This document shows, one piece after another, positions 1,491 through 34,952 of a stretch of DNA of 34,994 nt. Source of the stretch: a virus; IMG/VR virus record IMGVR_UViG_3300025652_000238, positions 1 through 34,994 of that record; one strand, 5' to 3'. Under the pieces are notes generated by a model. The model was not told the DNA's origin. It did no database searches and saw only the letters and a list, made by a program, of their open reading frames with translations. The translations under genes were made by a program, and so were the position numbers. The first letter of the stretch is position 1. The number at the start of each line of letters is the position of its first letter.

Positions 1491-3371
1491 ATGCAAAACA
1501 CGAAATTTCCAAATGCAAGCTGGGATAGATATTCAGATAAAATTATTAGTGCATTATCATTGAAAAAGACTGCCATAGGCGAATATCATGGTGCTTGCCC
1601 GGTATGTCAGGGTGAAGATCGGTTCTGGATTAAGGAAACGTCTGATAATGAAGTGATGGTTACGTGCCGTAAATGCTCAGATTATGCAGGCATAAAGGAT
1701 GCGCTGCGAAGGCAGAGTTTATGGCCTGATGAGAATGAGAAGCCAATGACGAGAGAATATACAATAAGTTGGCCTGAAGCAGAGCTAGAAGCAACGCATC
1801 CATACCTGATTAAGAAAAAGATTGGATTAGGCAATGCGTCTATAAAGGGTGACATATTAGATATACCTGTAATAAATGCCAAAGGTAAGCGTGTAGGCAC
1901 GCAGAGCATTAATCCGACAGGCGCAAAGAAATTTTCGTCAGGTATGCCAGTTGTTGGTAATTTTAGTGTAATTGGTGGTAAATTAAACGATTTGATTTAC
2001 GTTTGCGAAGGTTGGGCAACTGCAATGTCAGTGCATATGGCGACAGATAGGCCAACAGTATTCGCATTATCTGCGGGCAATATGACTGCCGTGATAGGTG
2101 AGCTGCTTGAAGCTAGACCTAATTTACGCATAGTGGTGGCTGGTGATAACGACGAGGCAGGCATTAAAGCCATTGAAAAATGCGTGGCAGATCATGGTGT
2201 GAAGTCTATTGTGCCTGATGTTGGCGGATGGGACTTCAATGATATGTGGGTTAATCGAGGTAAAGAAGCGACTGCTAAGGCATTGGAAGTGAAGAGCTTA
2301 CTTGATCAGGTGTTCTTTCCGGGCGATGCAATGCCACAGCTAGACAGGAGTTATCTTGTCAAAGGATGGTTTGGCGCTGGGCAGCTCTCGATGGTGTATG
2401 GGCCAAGCAATGTTGGTAAGTCATTCTTTGTGCAAGATGTGGCGTGGCATGTATCTGCGGGGCAAGATTGGCATGGCAATAAGGTTAAGGGAGGCGTCGT
2501 GCTGTTTTTAGCTCTTGAGGGCGGTATGACGACGCATAATAGGATCGTAGCCTTACGCCAGCAATATCCAGAGCATGAGGCTAAATTAGCTATGCGTGCA
2601 TTGCCAGTAAATTTGCTTGAGGAAAACGCTGACGTGCAGCTGATCATTGATTTGTGTGACGAGGTTAAACGAGCGCATGGCGATATTGCTATGATTATCG
2701 TTGATACGCTATCGAGATCAATGCCCGGCGGCGATGAGAACTCGCCTGCATCATCAACGGCTGTGATAGCTGCGTGTGATAAGATACGCGGTGAGACTGA
2801 TGCCCACCTATTGCTTGTGCATCACTCTGGCAAGAACTTAGACGCAAAGGCGCGTGGGCATAGCTCACTGAGAGCTGCTGTGGAAACTGAGATAGAGCTA
2901 TCATACGACGAGGCGACGGGCTTGCGTACTGCATTAGCCACCAAGCAGAGAGACTTGGAGGGTGGGCGTAAGTTTCACTTTAAGTTGAATGTAATTGAGC
3001 TAGGGCATGATATGGACGGCGATGCTGTGACGACATGTGTGATCGTGCCGGCAAGCAGTGATGACGTTGAAGCTGCCAATAAGAAAGCCATAAAGGGCAA
3101 GAATCAGATATTATTTAAGACGTGCTTCCAACAGCTGCGAGGCGAGGGCATTGGCATGTCCAATCCTGCCGGCGTTGGTTGGCCTGAACCTAGCACGTTC
3201 TGGGTTATTAAAGAGGAGGATATTAAGAAGCATTTCATGGGTAAAGTATCTGGCGTAGCGAACCCATCACAAACCTACAAGCAGTCAATTGCAGGCCTCA
3301 CAAGTGCTGGTCATATTGTGCAAAATGAAGGCTATATATGGTTTTGCGATGATTTCGGGAAAATGAGCTAA
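1491..3371 (+). CDS. Primase-helicase (zinc ribbon, Toprim, RecA-like ATPase)
   Basis: 626 aa, preceded by AGGAAGGGA. Three domains are readable. A zinc ribbon has C36, C39, C59 and C62. A Toprim domain of about 165-235 has E173 in CEGWATA and the acidic pair D219/D221 in AGDNDEAG. A RecA-like ATPase of the RepA/AAA_25 type from about 290 has Walker A GPSNVGKS (304-311), the Walker B strand IIVD (D405) and an LLVHHSGKN segment (441-449). The protein would synthesise RNA primers and unwind DNA at the phage fork. The order of domains matches DnaG/gp4-like phage and plasmid primase-helicases. Repeat arrays lie immediately before and after the gene, so it may sit at or beside the replication origin. 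No DNA polymerase gene is in the window. Confidence 0.85.
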   Translation: MQNTKFPNASWDRYSDKIISALSLKKTAIGEYHGACPVCQGEDRFWIKETSDNEVMVTCRKCSDYAGIKDALRRQSLWPDENEKPMTREYTISWPEAELEATHPYLIKKKIGLGNASIKGDILDIPVINAKGKRVGTQSINPTGAKKFSSGMPVVGNFSVIGGKLNDLIYVCEGWATAMSVHMATDRPTVFALSAGNMTAVIGELLEARPNLRIVVAGDNDEAGIKAIEKCVADHGVKSIVPDVGGWDFNDMWVNRGKEATAKALEVKSLLDQVFFPGDAMPQLDRSYLVKGWFGAGQLSMVYGPSNVGKSFFVQDVAWHVSAGQDWHGNKVKGGVVLFLALEGGMTTHNRIVALRQQYPEHEAKLAMRALPVNLLEENADVQLIIDLCDEVKRAHGDIAMIIVDTLSRSMPGGDENSPASSTAVIAACDKIRGETDAHLLLVHHSGKNLDAKARGHSSLRAAVETEIELSYDEATGLRTALATKQRDLEGGRKFHFKLNVIELGHDMDGDAVTTCVIVPASSDDVEAANKKAIKGKNQILFKTCFQQLRGEGIGMSNPAGVGWPEPSTFWVIKEEDIKKHFMGKVSGVANPSQTYKQSIAGLTSAGHIVQNEGYIWFCDDFGKMS

Positions 3372-3379
3372 AATGCAAC

Positions 3380-3511
3380 CTACTAATTACCTACTAATTA
3401 GCATTAGTAGCAACAATATCAATGACTTACACGACAAACTACTAATTGCAATTAGTATATCGTAACCAATCTACTACTAATACTATATACCTTAAGGTAT
3501 AGTATATTAGT
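3380..3511. repeat. AT-rich CTACTAATTA repeat array with palindromes
   Basis: The 189-base gap after the primase-helicase gene holds seven copies of ACTAAT/ATTAGT. CTACTAATTA occurs at 3380-3389 and 3391-3400, the reverse form at 3402-3410, a 16-base perfect palindrome ACTAATTGCAATTAGT at 3441-3456, CTACTAATAC at 3474-3483, and the reverse form at 3506-3511. The last two arms flank a second perfect palindrome, TATACCTTAAGGTATA (3486-3501). The very AT-rich sequence, direct and inverted copies, and position beside a primase-helicase gene suit an origin with iterons or a multi-site operator controlling the next gene. Function is inferred. Confidence 0.65.
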
Positions 3512-3560
3512 ATGTAGTTAAGCGAATAGTATGAGATAAGGAAAATCGGGGTTAAATAAT

Positions 3561-3926
3561 ATGGAACAAGAGATGAAGAAAAAGATAAACATTAGAACGG
3601 CTGGCGGCAAGACCGAGGCAAGCGAGGGCGAAGTAGATCAAGCGAAGGTTGGCCGGGGTAAGTCGAGGTCTGAGGTATTGGACACGGCTGATCTTTTGAT
3701 TAACGGGGATAGGGCGAGGCAGTATGGAAGTGCTGCGGAAAACTTCACGACAATTGCTCGCATGTGGAGCGCGTATCTTGGCAGGGATGTAGCTGCATCT
3801 GACGTGGCGAACATGATGGCCTTGCTGAAGATTGCGAGGCTACGCGGTGGCGTGCATGAGGATAGCAGCATTGATGGCTGCGGTTATTTAGCATTGGCAC
3901 ATGAGCTGGCAAATGAGGTCGGATAG
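3561..3926 (+). CDS. DUF6378-like phage protein
   Basis: 121 aa. The first 35 residues are charged and probably disordered (many K, E, G). The folded part runs from about 40 to 121 and includes the segments LLINGDRARQYGSAAENF, IARMWSAYLG, ASDVANMMALLKIARL and GCGYLALAHELA. I recognise this as the phage family DUF6378, a small all-alpha domain often lying next to replication or nucleotide-metabolism genes; its biochemical role is not established to my knowledge. The start is preceded by GGGG rather than a classic site, and the upstream repeat array (3380-3511) could act as its operator. Confidence 0.65.
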   Translation: MEQEMKKKINIRTAGGKTEASEGEVDQAKVGRGKSRSEVLDTADLLINGDRARQYGSAAENFTTIARMWSAYLGRDVAASDVANMMALLKIARLRGGVHEDSSIDGCGYLALAHELANEVG

Positions 3927-4661: not shown

Positions 4662-4701
4662 TATAATGGTGCATTACTTAAACTGCAAAAAGTAATGCAC
4701 C
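4662..4701 (+). promoter_or_regulatory. Candidate promoter with a 12-bp perfect inverted repeat
   Basis: TATAAT at 4662-4667 is a perfect -10 hexamer in an AT-rich stretch, with a weak TTGCTT at 4634-4639 whose spacing is long. Directly after it, GGTGCATTACTT (4668-4679) and AAGTAATGCACC (4690-4701) form a perfect 12-bp inverted repeat with a 10-base spacer. At this place it would overlap the transcription start, so it could be an operator or a hairpin at the 5' end of the HNH-terminase transcript. Confidence 0.45.
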
Positions 4702-4733
4702 TACACGGCAATAGCTATGAAAGGATAGCCGCG

Positions 4734-5291
4734 ATGAAAAAAGAATTACCAACTGTAGAGTATTTACGCAAGACAATACGTTATAACCCAAAGACGGGCA
4801 GAATGTATTGGCTCAAGAGAACCAAAGAGCATTACCCGCCTAAAACAGCAAACATCGAAAGATCAGTTAAATATTGGAATAGTAACTATGCCGGCAAAGA
4901 AACTGCAACCTACAAGGATGGCAGAGGATATCTTAAATGCAAGGTTAACAAGATAGCTTACGGCGCTCACAGAGTTGCTTGGGCATTATATCACGGCAAA
5001 TGGCCTAATAAACAAATCGATCATATCAATGGAAACCCATTAGACAACCGCATAAAAAATATGAGAGTTGTTAGTGTTCGTGAAAATGGTAAAAATAAAA
5101 AACGCCCTAGCACTAATACTAGCGGGATTATTGGTGTATCTTGGAATAAAAAATTATCAAAGTGGTCAGCACAAATAGGCGTTAATCGAAAAACAATTAA
5201 CCTTGGATATTATGATAATATTACAGAAGCAGCATCCGCTAGAAGTGCCGCCGAAAAAAAATATAATTTTCACCCTAACCACGGTAGATAG
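4734..5291 (+). CDS. HNH-AP2 homing-type endonuclease
   Basis: 185 aa when started at the ATG at 4734, which has AAGGA about nine bases upstream; an earlier in-frame ATG at 4695 lies inside the inverted repeat and has no ribosome site. The N-terminal half leads into an HNH_3 nuclease core with HRVAWALYHG, QIDHINGNPLDNRIKN (the DH pair and Asn residues of HNH) and RVVSVRENGKN. The C-terminal part is an AP2-type DNA-binding domain (SGIIGVSWNKK, KWSAQIG, LGYYD, EAASARSAAEKKY). Such genes are mobile free-standing endonucleases common between phage genes, often beside terminase. It ends just before the ribosome site of the small terminase gene. Whether it is selfish or aids packaging is unknown. 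Confidence 0.9.
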   Translation: MKKELPTVEYLRKTIRYNPKTGRMYWLKRTKEHYPPKTANIERSVKYWNSNYAGKETATYKDGRGYLKCKVNKIAYGAHRVAWALYHGKWPNKQIDHINGNPLDNRIKNMRVVSVRENGKNKKRPSTNTSGIIGVSWNKKLSKWSAQIGVNRKTINLGYYDNITEAASARSAAEKKYNFHPNHGR

Positions 5292-33020: not shown

Positions 33021-33241
33021 AACGATAATCCTTTCGGTCTAAGCACTGGCTTAGTTGTGATTTTTGCAGAGCTGACATAGTTTGTCTCGATGCACTGCGC
33101 CATGCTATCTAAGTGTGCGTATGGTTTGTACGCTGCCGGCAATGCATCGCCGCACTCCATTGCGCTGCGATACATTGTGTCATTGCTTAACTCTACGCCG
33201 CCAATGACGTAGGTTAGAATGAGTGTTGTGTAGAATGTCAT
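33017..33241 (-). CDS. Small N-terminally hydrophobic protein with two cysteines
   Basis: 74 aa, starting in ATGA overlap with the methyltransferase stop (33238-33241). The N-terminus (TFYTTLILTYVIGGVELS) is hydrophobic, a weak signal or membrane segment. Two cysteines (SAMECGDAL and MAQCIETNY) could form a disulfide if exported. The end is basic. No family is recognised; similar short proteins with paired Cys lie in other marine phage and bacterial genomes. Confidence 0.6.
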   Translation of the reverse strand: MTFYTTLILTYVIGGVELSNDTMYRSAMECGDALPAAYKPYAHLDSMAQCIETNYVSSAKITTKPVLRPKGLSL

Positions 33242-34836
33242 AATTTCTCCTCTTCTACCATTTTAATGCGCTCACCAATCCATTTCATTACTGGTACAGC
33301 CATTGAGTTGCCCATAGCTTTATATCGATGTCCGTTGGGGCAATCTTCTGGTTCTTTGCCACGCCAAGATATTTGCGTATAATCGTCAGGGAAGCCTTGC
33401 AAACGCTCACATTCTCTTGGGGTTAAACGCCTAACCGCGCTAGTACATATCATTGGCTTTGTGGCTAAATCTGCCCCACCTGCACCGTAAGACGCAGTAA
33501 GAGACATAGTAACATCAGATAAAGTCGTTTCACCTGTTGCTTTAATTGGCAGAAGTGTTTCAGTACCTGCATCGTATGCTTGACCTGTCCTAGTCGTCAG
33601 GCATTTAGCTACTAAACCTGCACCCCTACCACCAAACACCTCTTGATTGCTTGCGCCTATGCCGCCAGAGCCTTTTGCTGACTGCGTGAGTGTTGGATGT
33701 GGAAAATCACCATCCCAATGAGAACCAGACTTAGGTGTTACAGCTAAAGTTTCACTGCCGCCACCTAAGTCGCCGCCTGACGCTCGAACTGTGCCAACGC
33801 CTTCATGGTATCCGCCAAAGCTACTAGAAGTATAGCTTGTGGCTACTATAGGCATATTACCACCACCAGTGCCGTACTTGGCTGTCACAGTAGAGCATAC
33901 TTCTGGCAGCTCTTTTACCCGACTGTCTTGCGCGTGATGTTCGTAAGCAACCGCATGAACATCTGTGGCTGTTTGACATGGCGATAGTTCTACAAAGGGT
34001 TCTACCTGATTTCCGCCATTCTCTGGTTTTCTGCCAATCCAATTTCCGGGAAGTGCATATGTGATTGCTTGTGTAAGAACATTGGGTACATGATGGTAAT
34101 CACTGCCTGTATCTATTGTTTTAGTTACATCTCCAGTTACAGCCGTATTATAAGAATCAAAACCCATAGGGCTTGTAACTAAAGCATCTGCCTCTACTCT
34201 GGAGTTTCCTGTGCGACTGAAAGGAGGGCCTGTGCTAACTGTTGGGGCAACTCTTTGCCTCGCTTCTCGGCTCGGCGCAGGATTCCCTGACAAGCTTTCT
34301 GGCTCAAATAAAACACTTGCGGCACGTCTCCAGTCTCCAAGATATCCGACAACGAACACACGTCTGCGTCTTTGTGGAACTCCGAAGTATTGAGCGTCCA
34401 ACACTCTGTATGCGAACCCATACCCGATTTTCCCCATCGCTGTGAGGAAGGTTGCAAAATCTCGCCCTCCGTTAGATGACAGGACACCGGGGACATTTTC
34501 CCAGACAAGCCATCTGGGTTTAAGTTGCTCAGCCATTGCAAGATAGGTGAGCATGAGGTTGCCCCTTGGGTCCGATAATCCTTTTCTAAGGCCGGCGACG
34601 CTGAAGCTCTGGCAAGGGGTCCCGCCAACGAGAAGGTCAATTGTTTTGTCATTATTCCATTCCTTAAATTTTGTCATGTCTCCATGATTTGGTACATTTG
34701 GGTAGTGATGCTGTAACACAGCGCTTGGAAACGCATCGACTTCACTAAACCACTGCGGCTCAAAGCCTAAGTCATGCCAAGCTACTGTGGCAGCCTCTAC
34801 GCCAGAGCATACTGAGCCATATTTTAAATTAGCCAT
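33238..34836 (-). CDS. dcm: C5-cytosine DNA methyltransferase with large target-recognition region
   Basis: 532 aa from the ATG at 34836; a TTG at 34848 would add four residues, but the ATG overlaps the stop of the gene before it (TAATG) and has GGGGAA upstream. The motifs of C5 methyltransferases are in order: I (SVCSGVEAATVAW, 8-20), IV with the catalytic cysteine GGTPCQSFS (C75), VI WENVPG (113-115 ENV), VIII QRRRRV (155-159), IX RRLTPRECERLQGFPDD (from 469) and X GNSMAVPV (from about 509). Between VIII and IX lie about 300 residues of Gly/Ser/Thr-rich repeat-like sequence, where the target-recognition region belongs but much longer than usual. No partner restriction gene is seen, so it is likely an orphan that protects phage DNA. 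Confidence 0.92.
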   Translation of the reverse strand: MANLKYGSVCSGVEAATVAWHDLGFEPQWFSEVDAFPSAVLQHHYPNVPNHGDMTKFKEWNNDKTIDLLVGGTPCQSFSVAGLRKGLSDPRGNLMLTYLAMAEQLKPRWLVWENVPGVLSSNGGRDFATFLTAMGKIGYGFAYRVLDAQYFGVPQRRRRVFVVGYLGDWRRAASVLFEPESLSGNPAPSREARQRVAPTVSTGPPFSRTGNSRVEADALVTSPMGFDSYNTAVTGDVTKTIDTGSDYHHVPNVLTQAITYALPGNWIGRKPENGGNQVEPFVELSPCQTATDVHAVAYEHHAQDSRVKELPEVCSTVTAKYGTGGGNMPIVATSYTSSSFGGYHEGVGTVRASGGDLGGGSETLAVTPKSGSHWDGDFPHPTLTQSAKGSGGIGASNQEVFGGRGAGLVAKCLTTRTGQAYDAGTETLLPIKATGETTLSDVTMSLTASYGAGGADLATKPMICTSAVRRLTPRECERLQGFPDDYTQISWRGKEPEDCPNGHRYKAMGNSMAVPVMKWIGERIKMVEEEKL

Positions 34837-34952
34837 TATCTTCCCCAAACATTAATGTATTGATCCAGAAAAACTATAATCTCTGGCAAGTGTACGGCAG
34901 CTACAGCAAATAACGCCATAGCAAATCCGTCAATTATCATTGTAGTGTTCAT
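34836..34952 (-). CDS. 38-residue membrane protein, first gene of the minus-strand operon
   Basis: A 38-codon frame (MNTTMIIDGFAMALFAVAAV then HLPEIIVFLDQYINVWGR) has GAGGA (34961-34965) eight bases upstream of its ATG and ends in TAATG overlap with the methyltransferase start. Residues 9-27 form a hydrophobic helix, so a single-span membrane peptide is likely. It is too short for family assignment. Its overlap suggests it serves as a coupling leader for the methyltransferase gene, or is a small membrane effector. Confidence 0.45.
   Translation of the reverse strand: MNTTMIIDGFAMALFAVAAVHLPEIIVFLDQYINVWGR

Follow-up and report, generated by a model that had tools for sequence, protein, structure and literature searches.

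A candidate iteron-type replication origin matched to the winged helix of a fused primase-helicase in a group of marine phages

In phage P4, the winged-helix origin-binding domain of the alpha protein takes the origin repeats as its target and binds them, and the IncQ plasmid RSF1010 uses three separate polypeptides, the RepA helicase, the RepB' primase and the RepC iteron binder (PMC4234260). Winged-helix initiators also read iterons accompanied by AT-rich DNA at the origins of the plasmids RK2, F, P1 and pSC101, with integration host factor (IHF) involved in some of them (PMC4980987). Among related geminiviruses, differences between iterons are matched by changes in the iteron-reading part of Rep, a concerted diversification of iterons and initiator that is already known (PMC12548392). 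The locus analysed here belongs to a virus sequence of 34,994 nucleotides, IMG/VR record IMGVR_UViG_3300025652_000238 (positions 1 to 34,994, the whole of which is hereafter called the window). In it, a 189-bp gap (3372-3560) between a primase-helicase gene (1491-3371) and the gene of a DUF6378 protein (3561-3926) holds an array of short repeats. On the basis of sequence comparison, this gap is very probably the phage replication origin, or an initiator-loading site, whose iterons the primase-helicase would itself bind through its C-terminal winged helix. An origin is proposed because the presumed binder is a primase-helicase encoded next to single-stranded DNA-binding protein (SSB) and exonuclease genes, and because of the parallels with P4 alpha and RSF1010.

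The primase-helicase, encoded on the plus strand and proposed as the origin-binding initiator, comprises a zinc ribbon, a Toprim domain, an AAA_25 (RepA-like) helicase and a C-terminal winged helix. Its Pfam matches are AAA_25 (2e-36), Toprim_3 (5.5e-11) and Zn_Ribbon_Prim (1.3e-5), and its only sequence relative in the PDB is RSF1010 RepA (1g8y, E 6e-6, residues 294-456). According to Pfam and AlphaFold2, primase, helicase and winged-helix DNA-binding domain are thus all contained in one protein, and the genes at the locus are ordered as exonuclease, gp2.5-like SSB, primase-helicase and then the array. A short sequence repeated directly 3' of a putative initiator gene, the mark of an iteron-type origin, is present. 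RSF1010 oriV carries iterons and inverted repeats near its start site, a likeness to the array described here, but primase, helicase and putative iteron reader are fused in the phage protein; with the putative reader joined to the helicase in place of a separate RepC-like binder, the locus is not filed as an RSF1010-type system. Regarding P4 alpha, its helicase belongs to superfamily 3, whereas the present one is of the AAA_25/RepA type, the iterons, IHF-like block and central dyad have a layout of their own, and specificity varies widely. The locus would work like P4 alpha or RSF1010, but as the helicase families differ it is not filed as a member of the P4 alpha type either. Unlike in the iteron plasmids, the initiator is here the helicase-primase itself and the iterons are disposed as dyads plus direct repeats, while the geminiviruses are single-stranded DNA plant viruses with a rolling-circle Rep, unrelated in protein and origin. 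Lambdoid phages display type-specific pairing of O protein and ori iterons among related phages, as observed here, but lambda O is not known to act as a helicase, and there the iterons are contained in the initiator gene.

The gap is AT-rich, with a GC content of 0.29 versus 0.43 for the window, and contains seven copies of the 7-mer TACTAAT/ATTAGTA, on the plus strand at 3381, 3392, 3440 and 3475 and on the minus strand at 3403, 3451 and 3506. The 8-mer CTACTAAT/ATTAGTAG is present five times in the array and nowhere else in the window. Iteron 1 (CTACTAAT, 3380-3387, plus strand) is followed by iterons 2 (CTACTAAT, 3391-3398, plus) and 3 (3403-3410, minus, reading ATTAGTAG on the plus strand), the left and right arms of the interrupted dyad 1, CTACTAAT-TAGC-ATTAGTAG (3391-3410). 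Beyond an IHF-consensus-like block on the plus strand (TATCAATGACTTA, 3417-3429; consensus WATCARNNNNTTR), iterons 4 (CTACTAAT, 3439-3446, plus) and 5 (ATTAGTA on the plus strand, 3451-3457, minus) provide the two arms of dyad 2, a perfect, strandless 18-bp palindrome TACTAATTGCAATTAGTA (3440-3457). Dyad 3 extends over 38 bp (3475-3512) with arms that are 84% complementary; its outer arms are iterons 6 (CTACTAAT, 3474-3481, plus) on the left and 7 (ATTAGTA on the plus strand, 3506-3512, minus) on the right, and its centre is a perfect 16-bp palindrome TATACCTTAAGGTATA, likewise strandless, that reads TATACC-TTAA-GGTATA (3486-3501). The original prediction had placed the repeats correctly and described them as seven copies of the 10-mer CTACTAATTA, which occurs only twice (3380 and 3391), the sevenfold repeat being the 7-mer. 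Of the two perfect 16-bp palindromes it announced, that at 3486-3501 has this length and the other is 18 bp long; its end of the array at 3511 does fall within the array, the whole AT-rich unit that constitutes the candidate origin reaching slightly further, from ~3372 to ~3551, as delimited by difference profiles and comparison of relatives, among which it is swapped as a unit. That seven copies are unlikely by chance was well judged: when the 189-bp gap was dinucleotide-shuffled 5000 times, 13 shuffles reached seven copies of some 6-mer, 3 reached five copies of some 8-mer, and 18 reached an 18-bp palindrome. The array is thus beyond chance.

Single-strand folding of the gap is mildly better than that of shuffles (z -1.7), suggesting that extensive RNA or DNA folding is not what chiefly matters here; no RNA family was found by Rfam in 3200-3700, and no intrinsic terminator in the array region. 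Since palindromic half-sites fit dimeric repressors and the array is intergenic, it might be envisaged as an operator or promoter control region at which the C-terminal domain of the primase-helicase represses or times transcription, be it as autoregulation or as an early/late switch, and many iteron initiators do also autoregulate. Such a role as the array's function is nonetheless unlikely, as a sigma-70-pattern search of the region gave one promoter-like match against 1.5 expected by chance, the array is situated 3' of the primase gene and not at its promoter, and the presumed binder is a helicase whose array is unique in the window. Moreover, a sister clade considered below has the same layout between different genes, on the other side of the module.

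A set of 70 IMG/VR loci with related primase-helicases (82-100% identity) was retrieved, and classes were counted in 61 close relatives, the window included. In these relatives the gap 3' of the primase-helicase keeps its length and layout, and its half-sites all differ in concert, defining four classes with iterons CTACTAAT (class A, 34 sequences, among them the window), CCTATTAAT (class B, 16), ACTAATAAT (class C, 5) and ATAATAAT (class D, 6). The search for the same repeat in related phages, suggested at the outset, therefore recovered the layout, the motif itself not being constant and co-varying with a helix of the primase-helicase.

This helix lies in the C-terminal domain (residues 532-626; 3084-3368, plus strand), which no Pfam family matches and for which an AlphaFold2 model was obtained from the C-terminal 95 residues of A2 aligned with 33 relatives. 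The model, with a mean predicted local distance difference test score (pLDDT) of 94.9, consists of three predicted helices (6-20, 44-54 and 61-74 in domain numbering) and a two-strand wing (78-81 and 84-87). The third helix, PSQTYKQSIAGLTS (residues 592-605; 3264-3305, plus strand), is expected to be the recognition helix, and class-tracking residues concentrate in it. It reads NPSQTYKQSIAGL in class A, NPSSTYKQAINGL or NPTSTYKQAYNGL in class B, NPYQIYKQAINGL (with a V/I variant) in class C, and NPPQIYKQAINGL in class D. Within the primase-helicase, class-associated columns occur only between residues 538 and 626 and are densest in and around the recognition helix, the winged-helix domain being the only protein segment found to track class. 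Profile and PDB fold searches with this domain returned generic winged helices or non-credible matches, and these were discarded.

Comparison of class A with class C sequences delineates the exchange. In the pairs L034/L037 and L036/L038, about 3 differences per 60 nt are found across the gene, rising respectively to 15 and 14 in the 60-nt segment with the helix codons, dropping to 2 and 4 over the gene's final 60 nt, reaching 17+13+13 = 43 in the array of each pair, and returning to 0-2 per 60 nt just 3' of it. As downstream flanks are common to all classes, the array has been exchanged as a unit. On trees, class changes number 3 for the helix segment (the minimum for four classes) and 4 for the last codons, versus 12 for the N-terminal/helicase part and 11 for the downstream DUF6378 region, so that the DUF6378 protein, earlier put forward as a binder, is not supported; nor did support emerge for the 32240 winged-helix protein, the other binder suggested. 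Array and C-terminus might still co-vary merely as neighbours on one recombining segment, the protein not binding the array, and between classes A and B divergence is indeed raised continuously from ~300 nt before the stop codon into the array. On the contrary, the A/C pairs show two separate islands of change, and the final ~60 nt of the gene, which lie between them, hardly differ. As a separate observation, record IMGVR_UViG_3300025570_000015 (61,867 bases; L004 and L060) carries two full primase-array modules, one of class A and one of class B, and appears to be either a chimeric assembly or two joined phages.

Co-variation was quantified by a Mantel test on 36 distinct helices with 5000 permutations, which ignore some relatedness. 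Iteron distance correlates more strongly with helix distance (r 0.494) than with that of the helicase core (0.393) or the rest of the domain (0.398). The partial r between helix and iteron is 0.357 given the helicase core and 0.332 given the rest of the domain (0/5000 permutations each), that of the rest of the domain given the helix being 0.095 (136/5000), and a sliding window of the correlation peaks at residues 593-606. Helix distance is thus a better predictor of iteron distance than is the remainder of that domain, at odds with co-variation by mere neighbourhood. These data suggest that the iterons are matched to the DNA-binding domain of the initiator through its recognition helix.

In a sister clade of ~59% identity, no array adjoins the primase. 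Instead, 17 loci carry an array with this layout some 6.2-7.6 kb ahead of the primase stop codon, from which other genes separate it. Its neighbours differ (a RuvC-like open reading frame, ORF, and an unknown ORF), and it stands at the opposite side of the module. Helices and iterons still pair, as NPRSTYKQ/TGTATTAA, NKSQVYKQ/ATTATGA, NPRSVYKQ/TGTATGAA and NPSSIYKQ/ATACTAAT. Since the pairing holds with such a distant array, physical linkage alone cannot explain the match, and co-variation of non-interacting neighbours becomes very improbable. The repeated class switches, together with the distant arrays, are a stronger argument than the permutation test. Of the two roles first proposed for the array, origin or main control region, the former is hence supported by the conserved layout and IHF-like block, by co-variation with the adjacent winged helix, and by a match that persists with the array kilobases away.

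Similar arrangements were found further afield. By tblastn against phage records, the Roseobacter phages CRP-831, CRP-821, CRP-811 and CRP-823 share ~51% identity over helicase and C-terminus, and CRP-406 36% over residues 3-471. The former four isolates have the same gene order, and arrays of the same kind lie 3' of the primase-helicase with other iterons, TGTATAAA and ACTACAAA, or GGCTGGAAA in CRP-406; an example of the array centre in isolates is ACCCTTTAGGGT. In the CRP-8xx phages (L073-L076) the N-terminal part cannot be aligned to the Toprim primase, helicase, winged helix and array being kept, so the primase domain seems to have been replaced. Further scans raised the helix-iteron pairs to about twenty, including NPDSAYSGA/ACTACAAA, NPRSSYANA/TGTATAAA, NPRAAFQKA/TGTAGAAA, NPRAAFKQA/GTATGAAA, RPKKQFDQA/TGTCCTAAA, NKRQAWQRA/GCGTACCA and DKNGTWRDT/ATGTGAAA. 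Identical or near-identical helices go with the same iteron in otherwise well-diverged phages, as for NPDSAYSGA/ACTACAAA in L074, L132, L134 and L141, again contrary to a match due to neighbourhood only. Bacterial contigs from a gammaproteobacterial metagenome-assembled genome (MAG), Rhodobacter viridis and a Paracoccaceae MAG (L296, L297 and L299) also have a RepA-like helicase gene followed by iteron arrays (GTGACGG, CTTGCCA and CGTTACC, with a G/C-rich inverted repeat), indicating that the arrangement is wider than this phage group. Orphan arrays without primase were considered as well and rejected, as the exact class A dyad matches in L301 and L312 belong to phages that are unrelated, where they fall within a small coding sequence.

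Across the classes, the stretch from dyad 1 to dyad 2 retains AACAATATCA and then an ACTTA element, matching the IHF consensus. This block is kept in classes A-C, and some sequences of class D, L041 for example, differ from it at one position. Of 35 distinct arrays, 12 contain a perfect consensus match where 0.44 would be expected, that of the window array being one of only two in the window, and several other arrays have one mismatch, mostly TTTCAATGGNTTA. When whole records were searched the block also occurred elsewhere at a low rate, and by itself it is weak evidence. The centre of the third dyad keeps CC-TNNA-GG in relatives, with TTTA, TATA, TTAA or TTCA in the middle; in scorable stretches the loop of the central hairpin is mostly TTTA (15), TATA (8) or TTAA (4). 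With its perfect palindrome flanked by repeats, the array superficially resembles sites that some other protein binds for partition (centromere), packaging (pac/cos) or telomere resolution (hairpin telomere). This assignment is extremely improbable, because co-variation points to the primase-helicase, class is not followed by the gene downstream, the centre often lacks self-complementarity (TTTA, TTCA), and a scan of window proteins revealed no factor of this kind; telomere resolution and partition were rejected on these grounds.

Considering the array as an origin, we infer that it is bound, acted on by IHF, unwound, and primed at the third dyad, as follows. The C-terminal winged helix of the primase-helicase encoded upstream would bind the iterons, and a host IHF-like protein would probably bend the DNA that separates the first group of iterons from the second. 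Once bound, the subunits would load the RepA-type helicase and the primase fused to it onto the AT-rich third dyad, with the CC-TNNA-GG centre of this dyad as a possible hairpin or priming site. Recognition helix and iterons would then represent a matched specificity pair, swapped together with sharp edges among related phages. More tentatively, and with somewhat more doubt than confidence, these phages may draw on a pool of at least twenty mutually exclusive origin types, helix and iterons being swapped as a cassette, each type replicating its own origin only, and diversifying selection, for example against origin theft or interference during co-infection, driving new types. The pairs might in such a case form a readable code, with, for instance, Arg at residue 593 for TGTA-type iterons and Asp for ACTA-type ones.

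Several observations weigh against the origin assignment. GC skew, proposed as a check for an origin peak, shows no inflection at the array (3.4 kb); it tracks gene strand and flips near 32 kb, and is uninformative as to where DNA synthesis starts. Several array classes are devoid of the IHF-like block, and the helix-iteron correlation is partly common to overall relatedness, as reflected by the helicase core. Foldseek against the PDB relates the C-terminal domain to generic winged helices (PadR, CRP family, linker histone; best E 0.03), with no P4-type origin-binding domain among the 50 fold matches listed. Finally, two subgroups of the sister clade, with helices NPKTSYKQ and NPKANYNQ (L280, L282, L287, L286 and L118), have neither an iteron array nor a CCTNNAGG core array in the available sequence, which extends up to 10 kb upstream, and their origin may be elsewhere or different.

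The main text on CRP-822-type isolates (PMC12629253) says nothing about iterons, repeats, palindromes or a replication origin. What appears new, as judged from the sequences, is that an origin candidate is located for these phages, together with its putative reader, a fused winged helix, and a panel of natural cognate pairs with cassette exchange. Few phage origins have been located outside model phages, and here one is placed by comparison in a widespread marine phage group, with a candidate binder named and about twenty or more natural cognate pairs supplied that could be used for learning how such proteins read DNA. Two questions become testable, namely the way in which the DNA specificity of a winged-helix initiator changes and the reason for origin diversification among viruses, and related isolates with cultured hosts exist.

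Regarding the remaining window, its first base lies within the exonuclease gene and coincides with the start of contigs from two metagenome records (L004 and L005, whose matches start at 1491), probably a shared assembly break. The DUF6378 protein (3561-3926) carries the PHROGs family label 'phosphofructokinase', which looks like a misannotation; CRP phages annotate nearby small genes as dATP/dGTP diphosphohydrolase. An HNH endonuclease with an AP2 domain, resembling homing endonucleases, is encoded at 4695-5291, between the DUF6378 and terminase genes. Towards the other end, a large C5 DNA methyltransferase is encoded on the minus strand (33238-34848), and the sign of the GC skew and gene direction both flip near 32 kb.
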